A DNA stretch of 64,000 nucleotides from a virus (IMGVR_UViG_3300043774_000656:1-64000), one strand, 5' to 3'. Shown: positions 3,535-61,853, numbered from the stretch's first letter. Numbers and translations: made by a program. Notes: a model not told the origin generated them from the letters alone.

Positions 3535-4938
3535 TTAAGCCTTTTCTTTCAGTTTTTTCGAAATTTCTTCGAGTTCCATTTTGTACTCGAACATTTTCTT
3601 TTTGTATTCCTTTCTCTTTGAATATAAATCTGTAAGAACTCGCTTAAGGATTGAAGGCTCTTTTACATAAACAGCTCCGGTAGAAGTAACTGTATATTCA
3701 TTTTTATCGAATGAATCAACCTTTGAAGATGGTGCGATTTCAATAAAAGAGTCTGGCGAGATATTGAACTGTCTCATAATGGAGGGGTATAGAGATGCAA
3801 AGTCAAAGCAGGCTACGGCTTTATGCTTACCAACAACAGGCTGCTTAACAAAGGCACCAGTGTACTGTTCATTCTTTTCTTTCTCTTTCTGATATGGTTT
3901 AACGGCCATAACTTTGCCTTCAGCAAGTAGGTTTCTGGCTATAAGCGATTCAGTGATTGCCACTGGTGAACCAGCTTTATAAAAACTAATCTTACAGATA
4001 TTAGAAAGTGTAAGAACCACTTGAAGTGTTTTAAGCTTTTGGTCTATCAGATAAACAAGAATACTATCGACTGCATTATAGTAAAGATATTTTTGATAAT
4101 CATCTTCGTATAATTGTTGAAGACCACCGTCATATTTTATTTTACCGACACCGATAGTTTGCATTGCAGCAGTATTCAGCTGGTTGTTTTCTTTCACTGA
4201 TACGCTTCTATCCCAATTAGAATAAAGGTCCATGTAATCGACTATACCTATATGGTATGGCAGACCATCTCTTGTTAGGGCACATGTTGGCGATGCTTCA
4301 GCTGGATCTATCTGTAGGCGTTTACATCTATTAACTATGTACTTCCAGTCAAAGTTAATACAGTTCCATCCGCTAAGCATTGGAAACTTAGGCATAAACT
4401 TATGGATGAATGTATAGACCAGATCATACTCTGTATTAAACCTAATATACTTGATATCCCAGTTGATACCAAATTTCTCAAAGTATTTGTTGGTATCTTC
4501 TTTAACTTTATCTTGTGATTTTTGTGTAAAGTCTTTTAGACCTAGTACAATAACCTGATGATTAGGGGTAACTATAGATATGGTTAAGATTTTTGAATCT
4601 GCCCTTTCAGGTTCAGGAAAGTTATCAGTTACCTCAACTTCAATATCGAAGAAAAATGTCTTTGGGAAATTATAACCAAAGATCTTATCACTATCTTCTT
4701 TTGGAAGACGTTCAATAAATTCAATTAAACCATGTTTTGAAATTTTCTTTTCAAAAGAAGCCCTAACCGTTTTACCATCCCAGTTTATATTATGGACACT
4801 TCTGCGTCGATCATTGTCTTCGCATGTATACCAGTTTGGGAAATCAGTTGTATCATATGTCTTTAATTCAACTTCACCCTTGTCGTTGAAAAAGCTAAAT
4901 GTAACCTGATTTTCAAGTTGTTCAATATCTAATAGCAT
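3535..4938 (-). CDS. DNA polymerase, family B, N-terminal fragment (3'-5' exonuclease plus palm motif A)
   Basis: 467 residues. Exonuclease motif I is at D98/E100 (FFFDIE), motif II around N195-D197 (NFD), and motif III at Y287-D291 (YNAVD). Polymerase motif A is DFASLYPS from D379. The protein stops after a charged helix (LYSKRKEYKKKMFEYKMELE), which matches the first fingers helix; motifs B and C are absent and found in the separate gene at 1-524. So the split is at the tip of the fingers. The C-terminus shows no intein-like sequence, and no homing endonuclease lies between the halves. The gene starts 5 bases after dUTPase and is probably in the same operon. Known T4-type precedents exist for split gp43 polymerases. 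Confidence 0.95.
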   Translation of the reverse strand: MLLDIEQLENQVTFSFFNDKGEVELKTYDTTDFPNWYTCEDNDRRRSVHNINWDGKTVRASFEKKISKHGLIEFIERLPKEDSDKIFGYNFPKTFFFDIEVEVTDNFPEPERADSKILTISIVTPNHQVIVLGLKDFTQKSQDKVKEDTNKYFEKFGINWDIKYIRFNTEYDLVYTFIHKFMPKFPMLSGWNCINFDWKYIVNRCKRLQIDPAEASPTCALTRDGLPYHIGIVDYMDLYSNWDRSVSVKENNQLNTAAMQTIGVGKIKYDGGLQQLYEDDYQKYLYYNAVDSILVYLIDQKLKTLQVVLTLSNICKISFYKAGSPVAITESLIARNLLAEGKVMAVKPYQKEKEKNEQYTGAFVKQPVVGKHKAVACFDFASLYPSIMRQFNISPDSFIEIAPSSKVDSFDKNEYTVTSTGAVYVKEPSILKRVLTDLYSKRKEYKKKMFEYKMELEEISKKLKEKA

Positions 4939-5432: not shown

Positions 5433-6296
5433 TTATTTGTCAGATTGTTTAAGAAACTCGTTAAACTTATCTGGTGTAAAAGAAATTGGTGTTACACCTT
5501 TTTTCTTACCCTTCTTCATGAGTTCTTTATCCTTTTTTGAGTAAGGTGCAGGAATATCACCAGAGCCTGTAGCACCGTATGGGCCAACCTCAGGTATAAC
5601 TATAGGACCCATGCCGCCGACATTCATGCCAGGATTAGGATGAACTCTGGCGTAATCCTCGTTTAATTCACTTACATCCATTATGTATAATTTACCGTTA
5701 AATTCTACATCTACGGATGGGTTTATGCTTTTTGCTAAAAGGCTATATAGTGCATTTCTTTGTATTGACTTTTTAGGATTTTCTTTACCTAAAGCATCAG
5801 TAAATGAAGGTGACCATGCTATTCTGTTTACTTTATTGTCTTTAATAAACTCTTTGCATATAACACCTACTGTTGCCAGTATTCTAAATGGTATGTTTTC
5901 ATTTGTAACTATAAACTCGTTATCAGTTTCATCGTTAGGCTCAACATAATACTCTACTTCATACTCACCTTCACCTCTATCCTCAAAATCTACAGTATAT
6001 TCATTTTTACCTGTATCAAAACCATAGCTTCTTTTGCTTATTTTAAAATGTTCAAATGGTTTTGATGAACTGATACTTATTTCATTTATAAAACTCTCGA
6101 ATGTTGGCACAAAGCTTTCTTTAGTATCAGGTAGACCCTTATGTTTAGTTGAAGCAAAATCTTTAAGTTGCTTTTTGGTCATGCCCTGAGCTAACTGAGC
6201 GACTTTATCGCTTACCTCATCTGGGTCTTTTTTACCAGTCTTAACCGCATAAGCTTGACCCATTAGACGCTGTTGCGCTTTACTTTGTGCCGGCAT
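5433..6296 (-). CDS. Fusion of a DUF3008-type N-terminal domain with a capsid-targeting motif and an unknown domain
   Basis: 287 residues. Residues 1-56 (MPAQSKAQQRLMG ... FASTKHKGLP) match, from memory, the small stand-alone DUF3008 proteins common in marine T4-like phages. A capsid-targeting-like motif follows (TFESFINE, about residues 65-72), then about 130 residues of alpha/beta sequence and a Gly/Pro-rich, Lys-rich tail. Read literally, the prohead protease could cut after the Glu near residue 72 and separate the two parts. It is the last gene of the capsid-targeting cluster, 2 bases after its neighbour. Function is unknown; packaging in the head is inferred from the motif and neighbours. 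Confidence 0.7.
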   Translation of the reverse strand: MPAQSKAQQRLMGQAYAVKTGKKDPDEVSDKVAQLAQGMTKKQLKDFASTKHKGLPDTKESFVPTFESFINEISISSSKPFEHFKISKRSYGFDTGKNEYTVDFEDRGEGEYEVEYYVEPNDETDNEFIVTNENIPFRILATVGVICKEFIKDNKVNRIAWSPSFTDALGKENPKKSIQRNALYSLLAKSINPSVDVEFNGKLYIMDVSELNEDYARVHPNPGMNVGGMGPIVIPEVGPYGATGSGDIPAPYSKKDKELMKKGKKKGVTPISFTPDKFNEFLKQSDK

Positions 6297-6298
6297 TA

Positions 6299-6739
6299 TT
6301 AGTCTTCGTTTACTTTACTTTGCTTAACAGTGTATGTCTTACCGTTAAATTCAAAGGTCTTTTCACCTTTCTCTCTTGCTTCTTTAAGGGCCATTAGGAA
6401 TGCATTACCTTCACTTATCATACCACCATCTTTTACTTTCTCCCATATTTTAAGACCATAGCTTGAAAGTCTTACACCTTCTTTAGTGATGGAGAAATAT
6501 TGTTTGTTTCTAGAAGACCATCTGTCATGTGCTCCAGTACCAGATATGATAGAATTAAATTCTTCCTCAGTTATAACACCATCTTGAATAGCATCAAGTA
6601 TTTTGTTTCTGATAGCTGCCTTCTCGTTGGTAGATCTTGCAGGATATTTTTCAGTGTAGCCTCTTTTGTAAATTACTTTACCTTCATTTACTTCGAAGTT
6701 TTCATTTACGAATTGATTAAATGTTTGAAAGTTTTTCAT
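6299..6739 (-). CDS. Putative packaged head protein with N-terminal capsid-targeting sequence
   Basis: 146 residues. The N-terminus MKNFQTFNQFVNE resembles the T4 internal-protein signal MKTYQEFIAE, with a phi-x-E cut site (VNE) near residue 13 and a second NE at about residue 19. The rest is a compact, charged alpha/beta sequence with no recognised enzyme motif (segments SGTGAHDRWSSRNKQYFSIT and FEFNGKTYTVKQ). It sits in an unbroken minus-strand run with the other capsid-targeting-type genes. The family was not recognised; targeting is inferred. Confidence 0.65.
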   Translation of the reverse strand: MKNFQTFNQFVNENFEVNEGKVIYKRGYTEKYPARSTNEKAAIRNKILDAIQDGVITEEEFNSIISGTGAHDRWSSRNKQYFSITKEGVRLSSYGLKIWEKVKDGGMISEGNAFLMALKEAREKGEKTFEFNGKTYTVKQSKVNED

Positions 6740-6751
6740 TTTATGTTTTAT

Positions 6752-9700
6752 TTATTTCTTCTTTACAGAACCGGACGTTATTCCGATTTTAGCATTAAAT
6801 GGGTTTGGAACTGATCCTTTAGCCTCAAACTTAAATTCAGCAACTGAAAAAGATTTACTAACAAAGGACATACTGTTTCCTTTCACATCAAATATAAGGT
6901 ATATCTGAGCTAAGTCTTGTGACTTATTTATTAGAGAAGTTAGGGGCTCTTGATATAGATTATTTAGATAATCAACAACCGTAGTAACTAAAGGATAGAA
7001 AACAGCACCGAATACCGTCTCATCTTTTAGACTATCCCATTCATCATACATGTCTTTTGCGGTCATATCCTTTGGTTTCGTGCCGCATAATTTCCAAAGT
7101 TCTTCATAGAATGTTATGAAGTTTTTCTTATCCTTATGTAATTTGTACAACCATTCTATGATAACTTCTTTAGTAAGTGTGGTTGATTCAAGACCTGAAG
7201 TTTTTATAAGGTAGTTATATGGTGTACCGGCGCCGCTCAGGTATGATGAAAGCATTTCATTATAAAAATCAAAAATACTCAGGTCTACTATCTTCTTAAG
7301 TATGTTATCGTATAGATCTTGTTCATCTTGTGACATTGTTAATTCACCAGAATCTTTTAAAGTTGTTACAGCTTTCACTAGACCAGTTGCTGCAGGTGTT
7401 CCACCTTTACTACCGGCTTTAGAAGATATATGCATGCTATCAAAAATAAAATCTACAAGCTCTGCGTTAGAAGCAGTAGGGAACGAAACACCCGATTTAT
7501 ATGTTTTAATTATATTGAATAGATGCAGACCTCCTAAAACTTCACCGAAATCATTTGCGATATTTGATATCGAAATTAGATCTATGCCTTCTGCTAAACC
7601 TTTATCGAATTTATATTCATATGACGTACCTGTACCATTTTTTAAGAAATCTAACATGTCGGTATATGAATTAGCATGACCACCGCCGCTGGTAACGGCC
7701 TCTATTAAACCTTTTAGAAAATCTTTATAGTTATCTGGATATTCAGTCATGTCTATTCCTGACTTAATTGCAGATTCATAAACTTTACTAGATTTATAAG
7801 AACCTGTTGAAAGACCCAGTGCATCAGGTGTTAATTTCTTTTTACCTACAACTGCGACGTCGCCTGATTTACTTTCCTTTGTTGCATCGACAATTTCTAT
7901 AGTACCACCTCTTGTATATGAAAATTTATTTAGCAAGGTAACTTGCTTTTTGAATTTTATAATATAGGTATAGTAATCGCCTGAATTGCCTTGCTTCGGT
8001 GGTAAAATTGAGTCAAACACATAAGTACCTTCTGGTGCACCTATACTATTTAAGTATGATGTTATGTTCTGTTCAGCTACTGTAGTTCCTCCGAATGAAG
8101 CTCTAAGTACTTCACCTTCACCTTTACTTGGTTTACCTCTACCTTTAGTTCCTGCTACAACTCTATCAGCTCTTACTCCTGAAGATTCCGCCCAGCTATC
8201 ATATGCTAAATCCCAAGGTGTACCTTCTTTTTTAGCTTCATTTATCCTGGCTGATTCAAAAATAAAATCATTAAATGTAAGAAGTGAAAAATTTTCTTTA
8301 ACTTCTTGCATGATAGTCTTAAGTTGGTCATACAATTTATGCATACCCTTAGGTGTCATTCTCTTGAATGTTGCCTCATCATCTATCTTTAAAGCTTCTC
8401 TTACTTTGGTAGCACTGATATCTTCATCTGATCTCTTAATTTCAAATGCATCAAGCTCAGGAAGAGCATTCAGCTCTTCTTTATACTTGTCAATCTGGTA
8501 CTTATAGGCTTTAAGTCTATCTGTACCTGCTCCCCATAGAACCGGTTCATATGCAGGTCTAACAGCATTATAAATTGTATCGATACCTGCAGTATTGATA
8601 ACTGCGGCACCTTCAATCATATTACTCTGTATAGCACCAATCATTGCCAGTTGTGTATCTTCATCAAAAGGATTCTTAGCAGGATCTGATTTACCACCTC
8701 TTACAATTAAGATGAATGTAGGTAAACCATTTTCTTTATAAAGTTGTTCAACAACTTTCATGTGACCTTCAGTAAAAGGCTGGAATCGACCTGCAAAGAT
8801 ATTAACCTTCTTAGAACCATGTTCAGTAGTGTTTAATTTCAAAGCCTCATTGATGATGCTTTCAAACACTGAAGTTACATTTTCTATTTGAGATCTCTTT
8901 AAGTAGTTATTAAAGTCTAGTATTTGATTTTCTTCTGGTACCATTTCAACCTTCTTTTGTATCTTCTCAATGATACCATTAAGGGTATCAACTATTTGTT
9001 GTGTAAGTATTGGTGTAGTGTTCTTTCTATATCTTCTAAATGAACTGATAATAATTTTGAATAGATCGCTAAGCTTACTATTCTTTAATATCTCTCTGGT
9101 TCTTTCATTTGGTATAGTGGCTAGATTGATTTCAAACTCAGGCTTCTTTGCAAAGTCTGGTGTTTCAAAATCAACTCCAATATATTTATGACCATTCTTT
9201 TGGATATAGTCATTGAATAAAACAGACATAAGTTCAATGTATCTCTCATCAGGTGACTCACTATTAAGTTGTATACCTGTCATATCTACGAGCTCCATAA
9301 ATTCAATTATGTCAAGCATTGCGATTTGATACATGTCATTAGCTTTTCTATCTACAGGCTTAGTGATATTTTTAGAATGCTGCTGCATTACTGGATCAAT
9401 CAATCTAGCTGAATAGACTTCACTTTCACCAGGTGTAATAAATTTGAATATGATACCCTCGATTGGTTTATCAATATCATTCATTAGAGAACTGGTTCTT
9501 ATGTCTGGGTTAAGAACACTTATAATATAACGTGTAAAAGACTGGCTCTTAAATGTAGCCATAAGATCTGATTCTGGAGTACTTAAGTAGTCCATTATTC
9601 TATCTTTCTGTACTGATGTTAAATTGCCATTATAGATAATTGGGGGTCTTTCAACATCTAATGTTTTAGACCAATCTGAAAGAACTCTAGGGTCTGAAAT

Positions 9701-10096
9701 TGTTTTTAAGATTCTACCTTCACCATTACTGATTTGAATATCTGTAAGTACTAGATTATTCTTTGGTAGTCTATCATAAACAATGTTAACTGGTGCTAAA
9801 GATGGGAAATACTGAAAGCCAAAAACCCAATTGTCTGGCATTTTGATTACTGTCTCCAATCCAAGCTCATGAAAATGCTCTATAGCTTTTTCGTAAAAGA
9901 CCATCATAGTTCTATCTATAAAATTTATAGGTGAACCGTCTTTCTTCATAAACACAATTGTACCATCGGTGTTCTTCATTACCATAAGTCTAGAACCATC
10001 TAGCTGTTCAGTAACTATAACATACTTGGTAAAAAGGTTTTCAATAAAGCTTCGACCTCTGTCTTTGTATATTTGCTTGAGATTGGTAAGTGCCAT
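6752..10096 (-). CDS. Large putative packaged polyprotein: degenerate polynucleotide-ligase domain, cytidylyltransferase-like domain, unknown C-terminal domain
   Basis: 1114 residues in at least three parts. Residues 1-300 have the outline of an RNA/DNA-ligase adenylation domain: motif I reads TEQLDGSR at 29-36, with Gln31 where the catalytic Lys should be; motif III reads FGFQYF, with Gln where Glu is usual; motif IV is normal (EGIIFKF, E214); motif V lacks its Lys. Residues 430-600 form a nucleotidyltransferase of the T/HxGH class (GRFQPFTEGH at 436-445, ISATKVR at 560-566), the NMN-adenylyltransferase / phosphopantetheine-adenylyltransferase superfamily. Residues 620-1114 were not recognised. 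Capsid-targeting-like motifs lie between the parts (FESIINE|A near 417; LLTFNDFIFE|S near 614; INE|A near 620), so prohead protease could release each module. It overlaps the previous gene by TAATG. Confidence 0.8.
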   Translation of the reverse strand: MALTNLKQIYKDRGRSFIENLFTKYVIVTEQLDGSRLMVMKNTDGTIVFMKKDGSPINFIDRTMMVFYEKAIEHFHELGLETVIKMPDNWVFGFQYFPSLAPVNIVYDRLPKNNLVLTDIQISNGEGRILKTISDPRVLSDWSKTLDVERPPIIYNGNLTSVQKDRIMDYLSTPESDLMATFKSQSFTRYIISVLNPDIRTSSLMNDIDKPIEGIIFKFITPGESEVYSARLIDPVMQQHSKNITKPVDRKANDMYQIAMLDIIEFMELVDMTGIQLNSESPDERYIELMSVLFNDYIQKNGHKYIGVDFETPDFAKKPEFEINLATIPNERTREILKNSKLSDLFKIIISSFRRYRKNTTPILTQQIVDTLNGIIEKIQKKVEMVPEENQILDFNNYLKRSQIENVTSVFESIINEALKLNTTEHGSKKVNIFAGRFQPFTEGHMKVVEQLYKENGLPTFILIVRGGKSDPAKNPFDEDTQLAMIGAIQSNMIEGAAVINTAGIDTIYNAVRPAYEPVLWGAGTDRLKAYKYQIDKYKEELNALPELDAFEIKRSDEDISATKVREALKIDDEATFKRMTPKGMHKLYDQLKTIMQEVKENFSLLTFNDFIFESARINEAKKEGTPWDLAYDSWAESSGVRADRVVAGTKGRGKPSKGEGEVLRASFGGTTVAEQNITSYLNSIGAPEGTYVFDSILPPKQGNSGDYYTYIIKFKKQVTLLNKFSYTRGGTIEIVDATKESKSGDVAVVGKKKLTPDALGLSTGSYKSSKVYESAIKSGIDMTEYPDNYKDFLKGLIEAVTSGGGHANSYTDMLDFLKNGTGTSYEYKFDKGLAEGIDLISISNIANDFGEVLGGLHLFNIIKTYKSGVSFPTASNAELVDFIFDSMHISSKAGSKGGTPAATGLVKAVTTLKDSGELTMSQDEQDLYDNILKKIVDLSIFDFYNEMLSSYLSGAGTPYNYLIKTSGLESTTLTKEVIIEWLYKLHKDKKNFITFYEELWKLCGTKPKDMTAKDMYDEWDSLKDETVFGAVFYPLVTTVVDYLNNLYQEPLTSLINKSQDLAQIYLIFDVKGNSMSFVSKSFSVAEFKFEAKGSVPNPFNAKIGITSGSVKKK

Positions 10097-11361
10097 TATC
10101 TGCCGTATTTAATAATTCCCATTAGTTGATTGATAGCTGCAAAAGTACCAGTAAGCTTGTACATGTTACCTTTGTATTTGAATACAAGGCCTTCAGTTGG
10201 TATGATAGATTCAATACCACCAATTCTTGCAAGTCTAGCTAATTCAGCTTCAACCTTTTCTATTTGTTTTGTATCACCATTTAACTTGATGGCTTCAGCC
10301 TCTTTTCTAATGGTATCATGTAGTCTTCTCTTTTCTGCATCAGGAGAAAGAGCTAGGAAGTTAGAAGCGTTCTTCAACACAACAGAACCTAATTCTAGGA
10401 ATAGATCCTCAAATGGTCTAATGTTTTCTTTAAACTTCTTTTTAAGATCTCCCTTTTCGTATTCCTTGATCTTTTCTACCTCTTTGGCATCAACCATTTT
10501 GGCTAAAGCTCTCATATCAAGGGCTTTCTTATCATCATAAGCCCATCTTTGTACAAGACCATCTTTAACCCATTGTTCAAGATTTGGGAAGTTAGAATCA
10601 ATTTCCTTTCTCCACCATGCTTCATGATATTTAGAAACAGGATCATTTAATTGTAGATTAAATTCATCCTGTAACTTGAAAACCTTGTTCATGAAGTAAT
10701 CGATGTTAACATCGAAGTCCATGTCTTTAGCAACCTTTAAGGCTTGTGGAGGAATGATCTCAAAAACTTGACCGATATGGTTGTTTGCATCTTTGATAAT
10801 CTTGGCAAGATCTTTAGCAGGTTTAGAATCTTCACCAGTTATATTTCCTTGGCCGTCAGTTTGCTTAATACCATGGAATTGAATAACATCTCTATCATAG
10901 TTGATAACGTTTGAATTTTTGGAATATATCAATTCCATATTCATAAAGTTTTTACCGTTATCAAAGTATGCTTCTTGATCTTCTTTAGAAAGTGCTTCAA
11001 GTGCTTTTGCTAAATCATTAGCAGCAAGCGTAAATGTTGCTCTAACTTGTTCAGATGGGTGATCAGCAAACATCATTTCAATACCTGAAAGATCTATAGG
11101 ATTCTGAAGCTGGCCTTTATTGCGGGCAAACATTGCTTTACCATCTTTAACGGTTGCAAATATATTTTGACCATCGGTCTTCTCAGTAGGATCTTCCTCA
11201 AAGTTTAATTCACCTGAAAGACCTGCTTCGATCATTTTTCTAAAATCATCAAAGGTCAAACCTGCGTCATCGAAGGGGTGCATCATATGTCCTGCAGCAC
11301 CGCCTTCGAGGATCGGTTCATATTGTTCATTTATAAATGAGTCAAATGAGAGAAGCTTCAT
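10096..11361 (-). CDS. Capsid-targeted polynucleotide-ligase-like nucleotidyltransferase
   Basis: 421 residues. The N-terminus MKLLSFDSFINE is capsid-targeting-like, with a second phi-x-E (ILE|GG) near residue 19. Ligase-superfamily motifs follow: motif I EKTDGQN with K61 as the expected adenylated Lys, motif III NMELI near 141-145, motif IV EGLVFKY (E390), motif V YKLTG (K402). About 240 residues separate III from IV, more than usual, and contain a helical insertion. The likely activity is ATP-dependent nucleotidyl transfer (RNA or DNA joining or end adenylation), but the substrate cannot be read. The neighbouring 1114-residue protein carries a degenerate version of the same fold, so the two may be paralogues, possibly one active and one scaffold or binding partner. 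Similar proteins occur in other T4-like phages, as far as I recall. Confidence 0.75.
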   Translation of the reverse strand: MKLLSFDSFINEQYEPILEGGAAGHMMHPFDDAGLTFDDFRKMIEAGLSGELNFEEDPTEKTDGQNIFATVKDGKAMFARNKGQLQNPIDLSGIEMMFADHPSEQVRATFTLAANDLAKALEALSKEDQEAYFDNGKNFMNMELIYSKNSNVINYDRDVIQFHGIKQTDGQGNITGEDSKPAKDLAKIIKDANNHIGQVFEIIPPQALKVAKDMDFDVNIDYFMNKVFKLQDEFNLQLNDPVSKYHEAWWRKEIDSNFPNLEQWVKDGLVQRWAYDDKKALDMRALAKMVDAKEVEKIKEYEKGDLKKKFKENIRPFEDLFLELGSVVLKNASNFLALSPDAEKRRLHDTIRKEAEAIKLNGDTKQIEKVEAELARLARIGGIESIIPTEGLVFKYKGNMYKLTGTFAAINQLMGIIKYGR

Positions 11362-11363
11362 GA

Positions 11364-11786
11364 TTAAGCTTTATTTAACATTCCGATAAGTGGACCGTAG
11401 TCATTACCCTTCTTCTGTGCCAAAAGACCATCTGCTACTTCTTTAGCTTTAGCCTCATCAAAATCATCAGGGTGCTGTTGCTTAAGAATAGTATTCACAT
11501 ATTCTCTAAACTCATCATCATTTTTAATATCAGATTCGTTTACTTGACCACCTGATACTGATTTAGAAAGTTCATTCATTGCATCTACGCTGAAAAGCTT
11601 TTCCAAGAAAGCAGGTTTTTGATCTTCAGAAATTTCTGATGGGTTAACCACGTCAAATTCTCTTAGAAGATTTTCAAAAGCCATACCCATTGATTTCTGA
11701 GTCTGTACTTTCTTTTCTGTCATTTTAGCATCAGACTGTGATTTAACGTGCTGAGTAAAACTTTCAAATGATAATAGATTTTTCAT
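11364..11786 (-). CDS. Putative packaged head protein, capsid-targeting-like N-terminus
   Basis: 140 residues, acidic and helical. The N-terminus MKNLLSFESFTQHVKSQ follows the cluster pattern (x-F-x-S-F) but lacks the canonical phi-x-E cut site at the usual place, so removal of the signal is uncertain. The body (MAFENLLREFDVVNPSEI ... DDFDEAKAKEVADGLLAQ) looks like a small helical bundle. It lies 2 bases before the ligase-like gene. No family recognised. Confidence 0.6.
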   Translation of the reverse strand: MKNLLSFESFTQHVKSQSDAKMTEKKVQTQKSMGMAFENLLREFDVVNPSEISEDQKPAFLEKLFSVDAMNELSKSVSGGQVNESDIKNDDEFREYVNTILKQQHPDDFDEAKAKEVADGLLAQKKGNDYGPLIGMLNKA

Positions 11787-11798
11787 TTTTATTTGTTT

Positions 11799-12083
11799 TT
11801 ATTTTGGATTTTCGTCTTTATTATCTAAGCGACTCTGCATATAACTGTGTACAGTTTCTATGTAATCAGCAGCTGTAGTAATTTTACTTTGTACCCAGGC
11901 TTCTAGATCTTTAACGTTACCGATAAGATTGATTAGTTCACTGGCATGGTCGATAGCACTTTTCAATTGACCTATAGCCATTTCTTGTTCTTCTGACATA
12001 TCGCCGTTAGCCATCTCCTTAGGCACTATACTAAGATCACTGGTTTCTTCACTTACGAAGTCTTTATAATTCTTTACAGGCAT
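11799..12083 (-). CDS. Small capsid-targeting-type protein, T4-like phage family
   Basis: 94 residues. The N-terminus VKNYKDFVSE|E is capsid-targeting-like. Residues 30-85 form helices (QLKSAIDHASELINLI, then LEAWVQSKITTAADYIETV) that resemble a short conserved protein of T4-like cyanophages and related phages whose function I do not know. It is the first gene of the capsid-targeting cluster, with a promoter-like TATATA element about 10-25 nt upstream, inside the end of uvsW. Late expression and head packaging are inferred. Confidence 0.7.
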   Translation of the reverse strand: MPVKNYKDFVSEETSDLSIVPKEMANGDMSEEQEMAIGQLKSAIDHASELINLIGNVKDLEAWVQSKITTAADYIETVHSYMQSRLDNKDENPK

Positions 12084-12108: not shown

Positions 12109-13605
12109 GAATTTAACTTGTTTAACTGCGTATGCAAATTTCTGCTCTTTATAAATTTTCTGACGCTCTTTACCGTGTTTATAGAGATAACCGTCCCAGC
12201 CGTCATAACTAAAGTTATCTACAAAGTCGATAATTGTAAGAAGATCTTTGTCTTTATGTAGCCTTAATCCTCTACCGATACTTTGTCTTACTATGACTTC
12301 AGACTTGAATGATTCTGTAAAGAAAATATTGTGTATGTTTTTAATACTAATACCTGTACTGAATGTACCAAAGCTGGCTATCAAGATAACATTTTCACCT
12401 TTCTCCATTTTGTCTTTATAGACGTCTCTGATTTCAGCATCTGTTCCTCCATCTACATAGTAAATAGGTCTTGCAAATTTTTCACGTAGTAATTTATAGA
12501 GCTTTTGACCATGTTCAATTCTATGAAATAGAACAAGACTACTTTTCGTTGATCTACCTATGATGTTGGCTATGAAATTAAGACGTTCATCGTTTTTAAC
12601 GATAAAGTCTTGTTCCATTTGGTATAGCTCCTTTCTATTTGGTGTTCTGCTTAGACTAGAAAAAGCCATCTTTACTTCTTCTGAAGCATAGTCCATTTCA
12701 ATAACTTGTACTCGACATTTGGTAACAAAGCCTTCTGATGCTAAATAATTGGCACTAACCTCAGTGATCAGCGGACCAGTATAACTCATTAGGGTCAATC
12801 TGTCAAGTGTCTCTGGTTTTGGTATAGTACCTGAAAGACCAAATCTGTAAACTGAATTAGTACATTTCTCTAGGATCTGTTTAATAGACTGGGCTTTTAC
12901 CTTGTGTGTCTCATCGACAATAACCGCATCAAAGCCCTCAAAGTATTCCTTTGGCTTTTTCGATAATGATTGATATGTACCTATTACAAGGTTATACTCT
13001 GGCTTCGGTGCTTGACCTGAATAAATCTCTTGATATTTAATCTTAACTGGATTTTCAACGAATCTAGTGTAACTCTTAAAGTCACTTACACCCTGTGTAA
13101 CAAGACTAACACTGGGTACAATAAACAATATCTTTTGAGCTTTTTCTTTTTGTAAAAGATATGAAACAATGATATATGAGATTAGTGTTTTACCTGCAGA
13201 TGTTGCAAGCTCTGCTACACATAGTCTATTTTTAAGGATTTGATATGCTGCTTCAATTTGATACTGACGTATCTCCATGTTAAAGCCATTGAAATACTCT
13301 TTAACCCAGGCCTCAAACTCTTCCATTTTTATAGAGTTATCAAATAATCTTCTGATACCTTCTATTTCAATTTCATAATTAAACTTCTTGCATATATCTA
13401 AAATCTCTCTCCATAAACCTGCAGGTATGAATCTATCTTTAAGGAAATAGGAAACATTTCCATCCCAGTGCCCTTGCTTAACCAGAGGGTGGAAGCGCCA
13501 GCCATTCACCTTTCTGGTTAAACATATTCGTAGTTGCTCGATTTCTATATCAGATGCTTCAACTACGATTAGATACTTGTTATCTTCACTTAGTTCAAGT
13601 TTCAC
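12106..13605 (-). CDS. uvsW: UvsW-like recombination helicase (SF2)
   Basis: 499 residues, close to T4 UvsW. An N-terminal DNA-binding region of about 110 residues (as in UvsW) precedes the helicase core: Walker A ATSAGKT (134-140), motif II DETH (231-234), motif III SGT (258-260), motif V region ASFGTFSTGISIKN, and motif VI RQSIGRGLRL. In T4, UvsW unwinds R-loops and branched DNA, moving replication from origin-dependent to recombination-dependent. It lies directly after the UvsY-like gene, the same partnership as in T4, with a one-base gap. Confidence 0.92.
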   Translation of the reverse strand: MKLELSEDNKYLIVVEASDIEIEQLRICLTRKVNGWRFHPLVKQGHWDGNVSYFLKDRFIPAGLWREILDICKKFNYEIEIEGIRRLFDNSIKMEEFEAWVKEYFNGFNMEIRQYQIEAAYQILKNRLCVAELATSAGKTLISYIIVSYLLQKEKAQKILFIVPSVSLVTQGVSDFKSYTRFVENPVKIKYQEIYSGQAPKPEYNLVIGTYQSLSKKPKEYFEGFDAVIVDETHKVKAQSIKQILEKCTNSVYRFGLSGTIPKPETLDRLTLMSYTGPLITEVSANYLASEGFVTKCRVQVIEMDYASEEVKMAFSSLSRTPNRKELYQMEQDFIVKNDERLNFIANIIGRSTKSSLVLFHRIEHGQKLYKLLREKFARPIYYVDGGTDAEIRDVYKDKMEKGENVILIASFGTFSTGISIKNIHNIFFTESFKSEVIVRQSIGRGLRLHKDKDLLTIIDFVDNFSYDGWDGYLYKHGKERQKIYKEQKFAYAVKQVKF

Positions 13606-13606
13606 T

Positions 13607-14044
13607 TTAGGCTAGTTCATTAATGTTAAGTCTATTCTTAATAGCCCATCCAACATTGTCTAATGTTTTGATACATTCCTTAAAATACTCGATCTGAGCA
13701 GTTAAGAAACCTATCTGTCTGTCTAATACCGACAGATCAGCTTCAACCATATTGACCTTTTGTTTGTCATTAAGTTTATAGTCATAGTTAAAGTACTCCA
13801 GAAATTTATTCTTGTACTGGATGTTATATGACGACTCTCTTTTCTTTAGAGTGATATTGATCTTAGCTATCTGATCTATTATCATGTGGCGATAACTAAG
13901 CATAGTAACTTGCACTTCTGCAAGGTTTTCAAACTCTCTGATCTTGGATATCAATTCTACTATTCTATCTCCCCATTCACTTCTCTGTTTTTCGAGAAAT
14001 TTATCCAGGTCATTAAGTTTATCGAGTTCTGTTTGATTTTCCAT
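13607..14044 (-). CDS. uvsY: UvsY-like recombination mediator
   Basis: 145 residues, against 137 in T4 UvsY. It is almost wholly helical. The C-terminal half (EADLSVLDRQIGFLTAQIEY ... TLDNVGWAIKNRLNINEL) resembles the UvsY pattern, where a V-D-x-x-x-x-Y helix is followed by a short I-K-x-R segment before the end. UvsY loads the UvsX recombinase on gp32-covered single-stranded DNA. The gene lies between primase and uvsW and close to the gp32-like gene, strongly supporting the assignment; UvsX itself is not in the window. Confidence 0.75.
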   Translation of the reverse strand: MENQTELDKLNDLDKFLEKQRSEWGDRIVELISKIREFENLAEVQVTMLSYRHMIIDQIAKINITLKKRESSYNIQYKNKFLEYFNYDYKLNDKQKVNMVEADLSVLDRQIGFLTAQIEYFKECIKTLDNVGWAIKNRLNINELA

Positions 14045-14045
14045 C

Positions 14046-14261
14046 TTAGAATAATTTACCTTCGCTATCTATATCCTTTTTGTATACGATAACATTTCTT
14101 TTCTTAGTTTTTACTTGGAAATCAGAAATTGTTTTACCTGTATACTCATAGTTAGCTGAAGGTAAATCCTCTAACAATAACTTAAACTTCTTAAGGTGGT
14201 TATCATGGTCTTGATTAAATTTATCAAGCTCTTCCATTATCCATTTATTATTTTTATACAT
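14046..14261 (-). CDS. Small protein of unknown function
   Basis: 71 residues, highly charged. It has a helical N-terminal half (KWIMEELDKFNQDHDNHLKK) and a basic C-terminal half with short strands. It overlaps the end of the primase gene by 8 bases and ends one base before the uvsY-like gene, so it is part of this replication/recombination operon. No family recognised. Confidence 0.6.
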   Translation of the reverse strand: MYKNNKWIMEELDKFNQDHDNHLKKFKLLLEDLPSANYEYTGKTISDFQVKTKKRNVIVYKKDIDSEGKLF

Positions 14262-15330
14262 AGAAACTATCTAAACTGTTAGAAGAAAAGTAGCTGCCAA
14301 TATATTTATATGCATCTAATTTGTTTTTGTAACAAATTAAAATCAGGTCATTAAGATCTTTTATTTCATATTCATTTAGATTAAAGGTTGAAATAAACTT
14401 AGACCATAGGAATACTTCTTTACCAGTCTTCAGCAAATCTCTCATGGCATTCTTACCTGCTTTATCGTTATCGAACATGTATCTGATAGTTGGTATATCT
14501 TGAAACTGTTCGACATTTCGGCCAACTGTACATAGGGCTAGGCTGTTACCCATAAACTTGGCATCAATTGGTCCCTCAAATATAGTAACAGGTCTTGTAA
14601 AGTCTATGTCAAGTATACCAAAAAGTGTAGACACATCATTCAGCTTTTCAACTTCACTGCCTTCAGGTAATTCTAGACCACAGAAGCCATAAAGCTTTTC
14701 TATATTATATGTTTGATATTTAGATCCACTGCGACCTAGATTTCTCATCTGAAAGCCAACAACCCGCTTTCTATCATTGGTTAAATTAAGTATGTACAAC
14801 TTATTATTACCATATGTAAAGCCATCAGCTGATCTGACCAATAACCTGTTCTTCAGGTATTCATAACCTGGGCTATTTTCATTTATCTTTTTAGTACCTG
14901 TTCTTTCCATAAACAGATCAAGTGGTACTGCAAGCTTATATAGGTTTTCAAAGATTTCATATCTGACACTCTGTCTTACCGTCTTTCTGCTATGTGATTT
15001 GATATAATCGATTACACCAATTCTTTCAGTGCTGTTAAGGCCATTGGGTATGTAATCGTTAATTAGTTCACTGACAGACTTATGTATATTACAACCATAG
15101 TTATAACAGTGATAGTAAAGAGTGTCCCAAAATAAATTACCGCGCTTCTTAAGCATGTCAGTACTACTATCACCGCAATAGGGGCATGCAAAGTTTAAAC
15201 GATTGTGCATCTTCTTGATTCTGGCCTTAGCACCCTTGCCATGCGCAGAAACAAGTATATCCTCAACCAGGCCTTCTACTTTATTTCTAAATGCTTCGTC
15301 TATTTCAAATTTATTATCCAATGATACCAT
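14254..15330 (-). CDS. DNA primase (T4 gp61-like)
   Basis: 358 residues, near the 342 of T4 gp61. An N-terminal zinc-binding motif is visible (CPYC at 49-52, HCYNYGC at 74-80). The central TOPRIM region includes TIFEGPIDAKF and YMFDNDKAGKNAM (the D-x-D). It makes RNA primers for lagging-strand synthesis with a DnaB-type helicase, which is not in the window. The gene follows the terminator after the gp32-like gene, so it is either read through or has its own promoter in the 55-base gap, where I see nothing convincing. Confidence 0.93.
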   Translation of the reverse strand: MVSLDNKFEIDEAFRNKVEGLVEDILVSAHGKGAKARIKKMHNRLNFACPYCGDSSTDMLKKRGNLFWDTLYYHCYNYGCNIHKSVSELINDYIPNGLNSTERIGVIDYIKSHSRKTVRQSVRYEIFENLYKLAVPLDLFMERTGTKKINENSPGYEYLKNRLLVRSADGFTYGNNKLYILNLTNDRKRVVGFQMRNLGRSGSKYQTYNIEKLYGFCGLELPEGSEVEKLNDVSTLFGILDIDFTRPVTIFEGPIDAKFMGNSLALCTVGRNVEQFQDIPTIRYMFDNDKAGKNAMRDLLKTGKEVFLWSKFISTFNLNEYEIKDLNDLILICYKNKLDAYKYIGSYFSSNSLDSFYV

Positions 15331-17258: not shown

Positions 17259-17621
17259 TTAAACACGTGAACCAAGTGCAGAACCTAAAGCTGCACCGAC
17301 AAGACGACTGGTAAGCATATCATATAAAATACCTGGGCCTACACCAAGAACTCTGGCAATAATTTTACCTACAGAGCTGCCAAGTGCAAATCCTGCTAAA
17401 CCACCGAGAATAGATCCGAGAAAACCTTCATTCATAATATCTTGCTGTAGGTCTTCCATAGTTTTACCTTTACTTAGATATTCAGATACGAATCTATCAA
17501 TAGCTTCATCGATTTGGGCCTCCTGTTCAACTGTAAGTTCAGTAATCAAACTTTCATTTAAAGCTTTCCATTCTTGGCTATCAATTGTGCCTTCAGTAAT
17601 AAATTCGTTGAATGTTTTCAT
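17259..17621 (-). CDS. Capsid-targeting-type protein with glycine-zipper hydrophobic C-terminus
   Basis: 120 residues. The N-terminus MKTFNEFITE|G is almost the T4 internal-protein signal. Residues 11-62 are acidic and helical. Residues 66-120 are hydrophobic with repeated small-residue spacing (GFLGSILGGLAGFALGSSVG, then LVGAALGSALGSRV), a glycine-zipper pattern seen in membrane-inserting or channel-forming peptides. Further phi-x-E sites occur at residues 26-28 (ITE) and 63-65 (MNE), the last exactly before the hydrophobic part; cutting there would free a 55-residue membrane-active peptide. A promoter-like CTAATATATAG lies about 17 nt upstream. Role in genome or protein entry is inference. 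Confidence 0.7.
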   Translation of the reverse strand: MKTFNEFITEGTIDSQEWKALNESLITELTVEQEAQIDEAIDRFVSEYLSKGKTMEDLQQDIMNEGFLGSILGGLAGFALGSSVGKIIARVLGVGPGILYDMLTSRLVGAALGSALGSRV

Positions 17622-57469: not shown

Positions 57470-58567
57470 TTAGAGATTGACGCCGTACCAGAAAGCAGGA
57501 TTGTCATACAAACACTCAGGTATCTTATAGCCTAAGATGTATTTGCCGGTGGCAGTGATTGCACTATACATAGAAGTCTTCATTTTATCTATGTCAGATC
57601 CTGATATCTTTAAGCCATAAAAATCTTGAACAAGATTCAGATACATTAAATGTGATGTAATACCATTTTGGCCAGGTTGAGTATTGACCTCAATTAACCA
57701 ATGTTTACCTTCTACATCTACTGCAACGTCAATTGCAAACATATTCATACCTGGACTAACAGATAAAACGTCCTTGACCATATTTGAAATTTCATCTATG
57801 CTTGGGCAATTCTCATCACCATTGTAAATATCAACAGCAGTCCATGTAAATTTAGAACTTTCATTATCTGCAATCTCATCATGTGATGAACCTTCTGCAA
57901 CACGTAGAGACATTGCTTTTTCGTTTGCTGGTGTTCTAAGTGACAGGGAAAGTAACTTAGGCGTCTGATCTTTTTTACCTTTAAAGATTATCGCCCTGTA
58001 CTCTTTATCAATCTTGAAAGCTTCTTGATACAGATCATAACTATCTTCAGTAGCTGTAAGCTCTTCATAGGTATCAAATTTCTTGACGCCTTTTGATTGC
58101 CATGAAGCTTCTGCTTTCGCTATGATTGGAAATTTTAAAGTTTTAGTTTCAGCAACACTGAATACTGTCTTAGCAACATACTTACTACCTGCAATATTTA
58201 GTTCCTTATACAGATTGACCTTTCTTAATTTAAGAGAGTCTTCCGGTAAATTATACATTAACTGCGGATTGTAACCAGAGTCAAGCACAGATTGTGTATA
58301 TGTAGTAACGTAGCCTAGAGCAGGCAGACCGTCATTTATCTTTTTAGTATTACCTATAAAATCAAGTTGCTTGATAACATTGAAAAGATCATGTTGAGCT
58401 ATGTCATAAATTTCATCTATGCCAGTTGCTTTATCAATTCCGAACCAGTGTTCACCAGAAAAGCAATTAACCTTTTTGGCAATCAGCATGTCGAACCTGT
58501 TATCAGGAGCCTCTCTCATATGTGAAAGACCCTCATTTACGAATTGTTTAAACGAATGTAATTTCAT
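57470..58567 (-). CDS. Capsid-targeting-type ATP-grasp ligase
   Basis: 365 residues. The first 12 residues, MKLHSFKQFVNE|G, are capsid-targeting-like with a phi-x-E cut site. ATP-grasp features follow: FPIIAKAEASWQSKGV (146-161, the nucleotide-binding Lys loop), QEAFKIDKEYRAIIF (181-195), and the metal-binding strand pair FAIDVAVDVEGKHWLIEVNT then QPGQNG (287-312; acidic E303 and N305). Such enzymes make amide or related bonds between a carboxylate and an amine or similar nucleophile via an acylphosphate. Residue 12 cleavage would leave the catalytic domain intact. It overlaps the previous capsid-targeting gene by TAATG. Substrate unknown. Confidence 0.78.
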   Translation of the reverse strand: MKLHSFKQFVNEGLSHMREAPDNRFDMLIAKKVNCFSGEHWFGIDKATGIDEIYDIAQHDLFNVIKQLDFIGNTKKINDGLPALGYVTTYTQSVLDSGYNPQLMYNLPEDSLKLRKVNLYKELNIAGSKYVAKTVFSVAETKTLKFPIIAKAEASWQSKGVKKFDTYEELTATEDSYDLYQEAFKIDKEYRAIIFKGKKDQTPKLLSLSLRTPANEKAMSLRVAEGSSHDEIADNESSKFTWTAVDIYNGDENCPSIDEISNMVKDVLSVSPGMNMFAIDVAVDVEGKHWLIEVNTQPGQNGITSHLMYLNLVQDFYGLKISGSDIDKMKTSMYSAITATGKYILGYKIPECLYDNPAFWYGVNL

Positions 58568-58830
58568 TAGTACTCTGCGCCTTTTATGTCACCATACATG
58601 ACTTCGACCTGCTTACCTTTTTTATCTAGAGCTTTGAAGCCAACGTTGTTGCCATCATGTATGATGCCATTCTTGTCGTGCATAAAAGATGTGATGAAAT
58701 ATCTCTCATTATCTTTAGTGATAATATCTACCTCATCATGTTTTTTAAGCAAATCTTGTATTATCTCCTGGGTAAAATCAACATCCTTTGTTGATTTTTT
58801 TTCCAAAATAAAATCTCTAAATTTCTTCAT
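58567..58830 (-). CDS. Small capsid-targeting-type protein
   Basis: 87 residues. The N-terminus MKKFRDFILE|K is capsid-targeting-like. The rest is a small alpha/beta fold of unknown type (ITKDNERYFITSFMHDKNG, FKALDKKGKQVEVMYGD), similar in size to other DNA- or protein-binding modules. It is coupled to the ATP-grasp gene by TAATG, so the pair may be packaged together. A GATATATAC sequence lies directly upstream of the start, possibly a promoter. Confidence 0.65.
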   Translation of the reverse strand: MKKFRDFILEKKSTKDVDFTQEIIQDLLKKHDEVDIITKDNERYFITSFMHDKNGIIHDGNNVGFKALDKKGKQVEVMYGDIKGAEY

Positions 58831-61837: not shown

Positions 61838-61853
61838 ATGGTGTAAATATAAC
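61838..61853 (-). promoter_or_regulatory. Possible early promoter of the ligase operon
   Basis: The minus strand reads GTTATATTTACACCAT, nearly identical to the element before 62458. TATATTTA fits the -7 TAnnTTTG pattern of Bacteroidota; a TTTC about 20 nt further upstream is a weak -33 element. Confidence 0.45.

Follow-up and report, generated by a model that had tools for sequence, protein, structure and literature searches.

Bacteriophage T4 carries about four internal proteins of the capsid targeting sequence (CTS) type, IPI, IPII, IPIII and Alt, which are processed by gp21. The T4 internal proteins are small and basic; neither trait is required for targeting, since the T4 CTS carries foreign proteins as well. 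Mutagenesis of the 10-residue CTS of IPIII assigned targeting to residues 4 and 7 and processing to residues 8 and 10, and Asp at position 10 blocked processing while targeting stayed intact (review, PMC9026906). In phage P1, an N-terminal signal takes the large anti-restriction protein DarB into the head (PMC9024508). In the giant phages SPN3US and phiKZ, a large bolus of head proteins is cut by a gp21-related protease at a short motif that ends in Glu (PMC5694885). Cyanophages form a further point of comparison, since virions of S-SM1 contain the cytidylyltransferase T4-GC190 (PMC3037559). Cytidylyltransferase or NMNAT-like proteins were detected by mass spectrometry in virions of S-CREM2 and S-SCSM1, with citations of a like finding for S-CBWM1 and S-SZBM1, while the authors of the cyanophage proteomics cautioned that co-purification is possible (PMC10665884, PMC9602691).

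The 64-kb window analysed here opens a linear record of 123,304 bp from a marine bacterial virus. We sought the pattern [FY]xx[FY][ILV]xE at protein N-termini and found 13 confident genes with such a tag in the whole 123-kb record, besides two proteins with an internal tag (starting at 5433 and 6752). At least 15 proteins of the record thus share a T4-like tag, and several of them are enzymes. The resemblance to the T4 internal proteins lies in the MK-x-[FY]-x-x-F-[ILV]-x-E logic with its targeting (4/7) and processing (8/10) positions, in the S77-family protease, which is here found in relatives, and in cargo bodies that are mutually unrelated. However, T4 makes do with about four such proteins, whereas a relative of this virus reaches 28. 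Several identifiable cargos are enzymes here, tags or sites also stand between domains, and the tag core may start anywhere from residue 4 to 19. The protease ORFs, at ~550–730 aa, are also much larger than in T4. Unlike the Dar N-termini of P1, which have no common consensus (PMC9024508), many unrelated proteins have one consensus here, and the propeptides of SPN3US and phiKZ are mostly longer than 100 residues, without a shared tag of 10–13 residues (PMC5694885). We consider it quite probable that the virus encodes a greatly expanded protein-loading system of the T4 CTS type, with polyproteins processed in the prohead and injection of the cargo as a kit for the next infection. Such a kind of system is known; its scale, the enzyme cargo, the tags between domains and a capsid mimic are, to the extent that we could check, new.

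Two aromatic residues, an aliphatic residue and Glu are kept in the tags of the record at the relative positions critical in T4, while the other residues vary. As read from the tags, conservation coincides exactly with the four positions identified by IPIII mutagenesis. With the strict pattern, 170 ORFs had 17 matches within residues 1–30 versus 8 in the six-fold larger remainder, a 13.7-fold difference, and shuffled sequences gave on average 1.2 and at most 5 N-terminal matches against the 17 observed. A Met-anchored regular expression returned 16 genes of the record (shuffled mean 0.53, maximum 4); the gene at 58567 is absent from these 16, having been dropped by the simple gene caller. A looser expression admitting L and I at the aromatic positions was abandoned as too permissive. 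In T4, which served as control, the Met-anchored expression returned only ipII, ipIII and gp61.1, and missed ipI, which starts with MKTFKEFTSTTTPVSTITE.

According to the original prediction, genes in a cluster at 5433-12083 hold a T4-type signal at the N-terminus or inside, and indeed the tags are present in all genes that it named. Its count of five cluster genes stands for the N-terminal tags at 6299, 10096 and 11799 and the internal ones at 5433 and 6752, but a sixth gene on the minus strand (11364..11786), encoding 140 aa, has only a decayed tag, MKNLLSFESFTQHV, without Glu. All window features described in this and the next three paragraphs lie on the minus strand. The gene at 6299..6739 encodes a tagged protein of 146 aa (tag MKNFQTFNQFVNE at 6701-6739, kept in the relatives L005, L006, L007 and L009), and that at 11799..12083 one of 94 aa (tag MPVKNYKDFVSE at 12048-12083, kept in L006 and L007). 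Similar tags had been proposed for three genes outside the cluster, and all three were found. The first (17259..17621) encodes a glycine-zipper protein with the tag MKTFNEFITE at 17592-17621 and tagged orthologs in L006, L007, G008 and G012; a tagged relative matches the Pfam family Gly-zipper_Omp at 1.5e-3, and a second site, DIMNE (17427-17441), directly precedes the zipper GFLGSILGGLAGFALG. The second (57470..58567) is an ATP-grasp enzyme (Pfam 6e-7) with the tag MKLHSFKQFVNE at 58532-58567 and a tagged ATP-grasp homologue in G008, and the third (58567..58830) is an 87-aa protein with the tag MKKFRDFILE at 58801-58830. Searching the rest of the record, as had been proposed, added seven further confident genes with N-terminal tags beyond the window (65769, 68050, 68501, 71687, 81454, 119834 and 121180). 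The activities that had been claimed, namely a ligase-like nucleotidyltransferase, a T/HxGH nucleotidyltransferase fusion, an ATP-grasp enzyme and a glycine zipper, hold at the level of motifs or profiles.

The gene at 10096..11361 encodes a tagged, RNA-ligase-like covalent nucleotidyltransferase (tag MKLLSFDSFINE at 11326-11361). By our own motif identification it has KTDGQN (motif I, KxDG), NMEL, EGLVFK (motif IV, EGxVxK) and YKLTG, which are conserved in 22 orthologs. The top Foldseek matches of its predicted fold are T4 Rnl1, Rnl2 and other ligases, with weak support (E 0.04 at best, low TM), and a profile search of the protein against solved structures gave no match. More than 570 IMG/VR stretches encode relatives, and 69 of the 87 ORFs from the loci that were fetched, some of them redundant, match the tag pattern. 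An alignment of 22 orthologs shows F9 and E12 conserved to at least 90% and E19 invariant, while the linker behind the tag is 3–15 residues long and free to vary in sequence. Roughly the first 25–30 residues of the predicted model are poorly ordered except for a short helix (mean pLDDT 42–49 for blocks 1–30). A second cleavage-like site, PILE (11305..11316), stands directly before the invariant GGAAGHM, and this second [ILV]-x-E site, followed by GG, occurs in 64/64 parsed orthologs, whether position 10 of their tag is Glu (51/64) or Asp (13/64). The tag columns of the parsed orthologs were partly selected by the regular expression; the second site was not.

The neighbouring gene (6752..10096) encodes a fusion of 1114 aa with a ligase-like domain (~1–390), an NMNAT-like domain (~430–600), a tag and a C-terminal domain (605–1114). 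The NMNAT-like domain holds the motifs GRFQPFTEGH (HxGH-type) and ISATKVREAL (SxTxxR-type), matches Pfam CTP_transf_like at 8e-8 and has MJ0541 as nearest solved structure (9e-5). The ligase-like domain, which shows EQLDGSR at residues ~30–40, lacks the nucleotidyl-accepting Lys in all relatives inspected; close relatives have Gln or Asn in place of this motif I residue, and in the distant L035 a KxDG is missing altogether. Because this Lys is replaced, the domain is probably inactive and apparently a conserved pseudo-enzyme. Between nucleotidyltransferase and C-terminal domain lies the internal tag LLTFNDFIFE (residues 605–614; 8255..8284). Flanked by variable linkers, LL[TS]FNDFIxE is kept in five of five aligned fused proteins, and the internal tag lacks Glu in L142, L167, L187 and L207. 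A divergent and weaker tag, SVFESIINE (residues 409–417; 8846..8872), stands between the ligase-like and nucleotidyltransferase domains and is not kept in L010 or L013. We know of no experimental precedent for internal tags as targeting signals. The C-terminal domain also occurs as a stand-alone gene elsewhere. Its conserved E248, D278 and K289 in a helix-strand-strand layout are suggestive of a PD-(D/E)xK-like nuclease, which is no more than a motif-level guess; neither fold nor Pfam searches of the domain gave a convincing match, and a search for it in annotated phages gave none.

A different arrangement is found in the protein encoded at 5433..6296, which combines a DUF3008 domain (Pfam 5e-11), a tag, an inserted cargo of 141 aa and a capsid-arm mimic. 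The internal tag FESFINE (residues 66–72; 6081..6101) forms the first site of the cargo slot, and a second cleavage-like site, SELNE (5658..5672), precedes DYARVHPNPGMNVGGMGP, a stretch resembling the N-arm of a mature major capsid protein. The cargo thus sits exactly between FESFINE and the second LNE, i.e., between two x-N-E sites. In L006 and L007, the homologue has only 146 aa, composed of DUF3008, FESF[LI]NE and then DYARVHPNPGMNVGGMGP, so that the tag is joined directly to DYARVHPNPG. The stretch after the second site resembles what directly follows the NE of the gp23-like capsid protein in relatives (alignment score 85–87; best of 2000 shuffles 58–61), and the homologue in the 462-kb huge phage LR756500 resembles, by eye, the capsid protein of that phage. 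T4 gp61.1 (NC_000866 18966-19130, L253), annotated as hypothetical, has 54 aa that consist of a tag and then a stretch that looks like the N-terminus of mature gp23; it scores 69 against T4's own capsid protein, with a shuffled maximum of 52. As far as comparison of the proteins can tell, the 5433 protein and gp61.1 are of the same design, a tag joined to a look-alike of the capsid N-arm.

The nucleotidyltransferase domain of the fusion is related to that of cyanophage T4-GC190 (PHROG 395), and all six GC190-type members that were inspected start with a tag, each followed by Ala. These starts are MKKFNAFLIE in P-RSM4, MKKFSAFLSE in Syn9, MKSFFQFLSE in S-SM2, VKSFGQFLTE in S-SSM7, MKSFSKFFSE in S-SCSM2R and, after two residues, MRSFLTFLTE in ACG-2014f. 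This evidence concerns T4-GC190 relatives of the virion proteins; the exact virion proteins of S-SM1 and S-CREM2 are not among them. In P-RSM4 (152191-154333, L028) and Syn9 (148771-150883, L248), a ligase-like gene with KWDGAP or KYDGAP lies directly beside the tagged cytidylyltransferase, and this cyanophage pair corresponds to the two that the clade studied here has either fused or as neighbours. The present fusion differs in that its ligase-like domain lacks the catalytic Lys and in the added C-terminal domain. The tag could explain a puzzle known from the literature, the recurrence of NMNAT-like cytidylyltransferases in cyanophage virions. Among titles and abstracts of the literature since 2021 that contain 'capsid targeting sequence', we found no report of a capsid tag on cyanophage cytidylyltransferases.

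Beyond the window, the protein encoded at 121180-121935 is a 2H phosphoesterase like Acb1, with a Pfam Acb1 match (E 5.5e-5) of 23.4 bits, under the curated cut-off of 27. Its two HxT motifs are HVT and HMT, those of its tagged homologue in G008 (Pfam Acb1 E 2e-7) HCT and HMT. Both proteins are 47% identical over 169 residues and keep the tag, although one of them has ~75 residues from tag to domain and the other has next to none. The anti-CBASS protein Acb1 of T4 (gp57B) is likewise a 2H phosphoesterase with two HxT motifs; it is made after infection and is not known to be tagged, whereas the Acb1-like proteins here carry the capsid tag. Further tagged proteins include an AAA ATPase (119834) and a GNAT enzyme. 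Several tagged enzymes measure 250–1114 aa and do not meet the description of T4 internal proteins as small and basic.

To speak of an injected arsenal, as the original prediction did, is an inference, and factors of head assembly may be among the tagged proteins. The alternative that survives best goes further: the tag would be a genuine T4-type docking and cleavage signal, but most cargos would be components of head assembly or of the core that act or are degraded in the prohead, rather than injected effectors. The T4 prohead core also holds gp21, gp22, gp67 and gp68, and most of their fragments do not stay in the head (PMC9026906). Moreover, the tagged proteins include small, charged ones (65769 and 68501), and the likeness of the 5433 protein to the capsid N-arm suggests an assembly role. 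However, many tagged proteins are folded enzymes without obvious assembly role (Acb1-like, ATP-grasp, GNAT, NMNAT-like), and cytidylyltransferases were detected in mature cyanophage virions (PMC3037559). We regard this alternative as rather unlikely.

We give much less credence to the idea that the tag is another N-terminal signal, e.g., for docking to a different assembly or compartment, which resembles that of T4 by convergence. What speaks for it is that tag and protease do not always occur together, as some phages with S77 lack a tag excess, and that the tag varies by lineage, with MKHIKLFEQFVNE in G008 and MKYIKEYEEFLNE in LR756500. On the other hand, conservation falls on the four positions critical in T4, all parsed ligase orthologs possess the second protease-consensus site, and S77 is present in 11/15 large contigs of the clade. 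phiKZ and SPO1, the two tested phages without S77 match, gave zero tag matches with the same regular expression. 

The original prediction would have been refuted by the absence of a gp21-like protease from the complete genome, and neither S77 protease nor head genes were found in the 123-kb record. The refuting condition thus appears to hold for the record itself, though only because the contig stops short of the head genes: syntenic relatives continue past its end, and in G002, G007 and LR756500 S77 has portal-like and gp23-like (capsid) genes as neighbours in that region. The capsid-targeting reading itself gained support from the matching mutagenesis positions, the recovery of T4 internal proteins by the regular expression and the tagged family of virion cytidylyltransferases. 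S77 alone was rejected as predictor of tags, for PTm1, HTVC008M and Mel-JY01 have it without tag excess; the protease of PTm1, an isolated relative, is known by annotation (prohead core scaffolding protein and protease). Mel-JY01 was also discarded as tagged relative, as it shares the ligase-nucleotidyltransferase fusion, yet not the tag excess. Therefore, the tag expansion belongs to certain lineages.

Two large contigs of the clade are among these: G008 (236 kb) carries 28 tagged genes, where shuffling gave 1.2 on average (maximum 5), and G012 (150 kb) has 10 against 0.4 (maximum 3). LR756500 has 24 against 2.5 (maximum 9). That tags are mere chance or low-complexity N-termini is practically untenable and already refuted for the whole set, because counts exceed every shuffle in four genomes and the tag is conserved across dozens of orthologs with hypervariable linkers, even though a few loose Met-anchored matches of the record (1620, a ribonucleotide reductase, 99504, 106839 and 115607) are probably chance and were set aside from the 16. 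By eye, the tagged set of LR756500 contains, among others, a HAD-like phosphatase, a VWA/metallopeptidase-like protein and several proteins with leucine-rich repeats. Many of its tagged proteins have a common C-terminal motif like KYEHLxNADDFGFFDN (e.g., 13446-14282, 180972-181730 and 331856-332545); it is possibly a second signal, and several carriers are leucine-rich-repeat proteins.

Under the expanded loading system that we prefer, a cargo protein would dock to the prohead core by the aromatics of its tag, and cleavage after hydrophobic-x-Glu by the S77 prohead protease would set the cargo free inside the head. DNA would then be packaged around the freed cargo, and when the next cell is infected both would pass through the tail, providing a ready-made kit before any phage gene is expressed. 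Tags or sites between domains suggest polyproteins, in which case the product of one gene would be cut into separate cargos in the head. Packaging and processing of the tagged proteins are likely and well supported by comparison, while virion proteomics of this phage is lacking. Injection with the DNA is inferred from the T4 precedent. Host functions, such as NAD and nucleic-acid metabolism, a block of CBASS signalling and membrane passage, are inferred too and individually mostly open. There is, in our judgment, an even chance that a large uncultured T4-related group delivers 10–30 different proteins per virion by one tag, including counter-defence enzymes such as the Acb1-like anti-CBASS protein and NAD-related enzymes, and in part as polyproteins whose cargo slots are cut by the prohead protease within the head. 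If true, what seemed a small curiosity of T4 would prove to be a way of protein injection that is general among marine and huge phages and very large in scale, and a sequence rule would predict the phage proteins that accompany the DNA into the cell. Candidate injected counter-defence proteins could then be picked from sequence alone, and many tagged proteins of unknown function would become candidates for counter-defence or host takeover.

Two further observations concern other parts of the record. A leader, TATATTTACACCATAACAAT, is repeated before or at gene starts of the record (G000) at 61849(-), 86106(-), 88259(-), 90727(-), 91963(-) and 93580(+), and is possibly a promoter or leader of the Bacteroidota type. 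The window also encodes the first part only of a family-B-like DNA polymerase (3535-4938), which appears to be split; in relatives, the apparent second part (L005, 9808-10962) lies several genes away, with ribonucleotide reductase in between.
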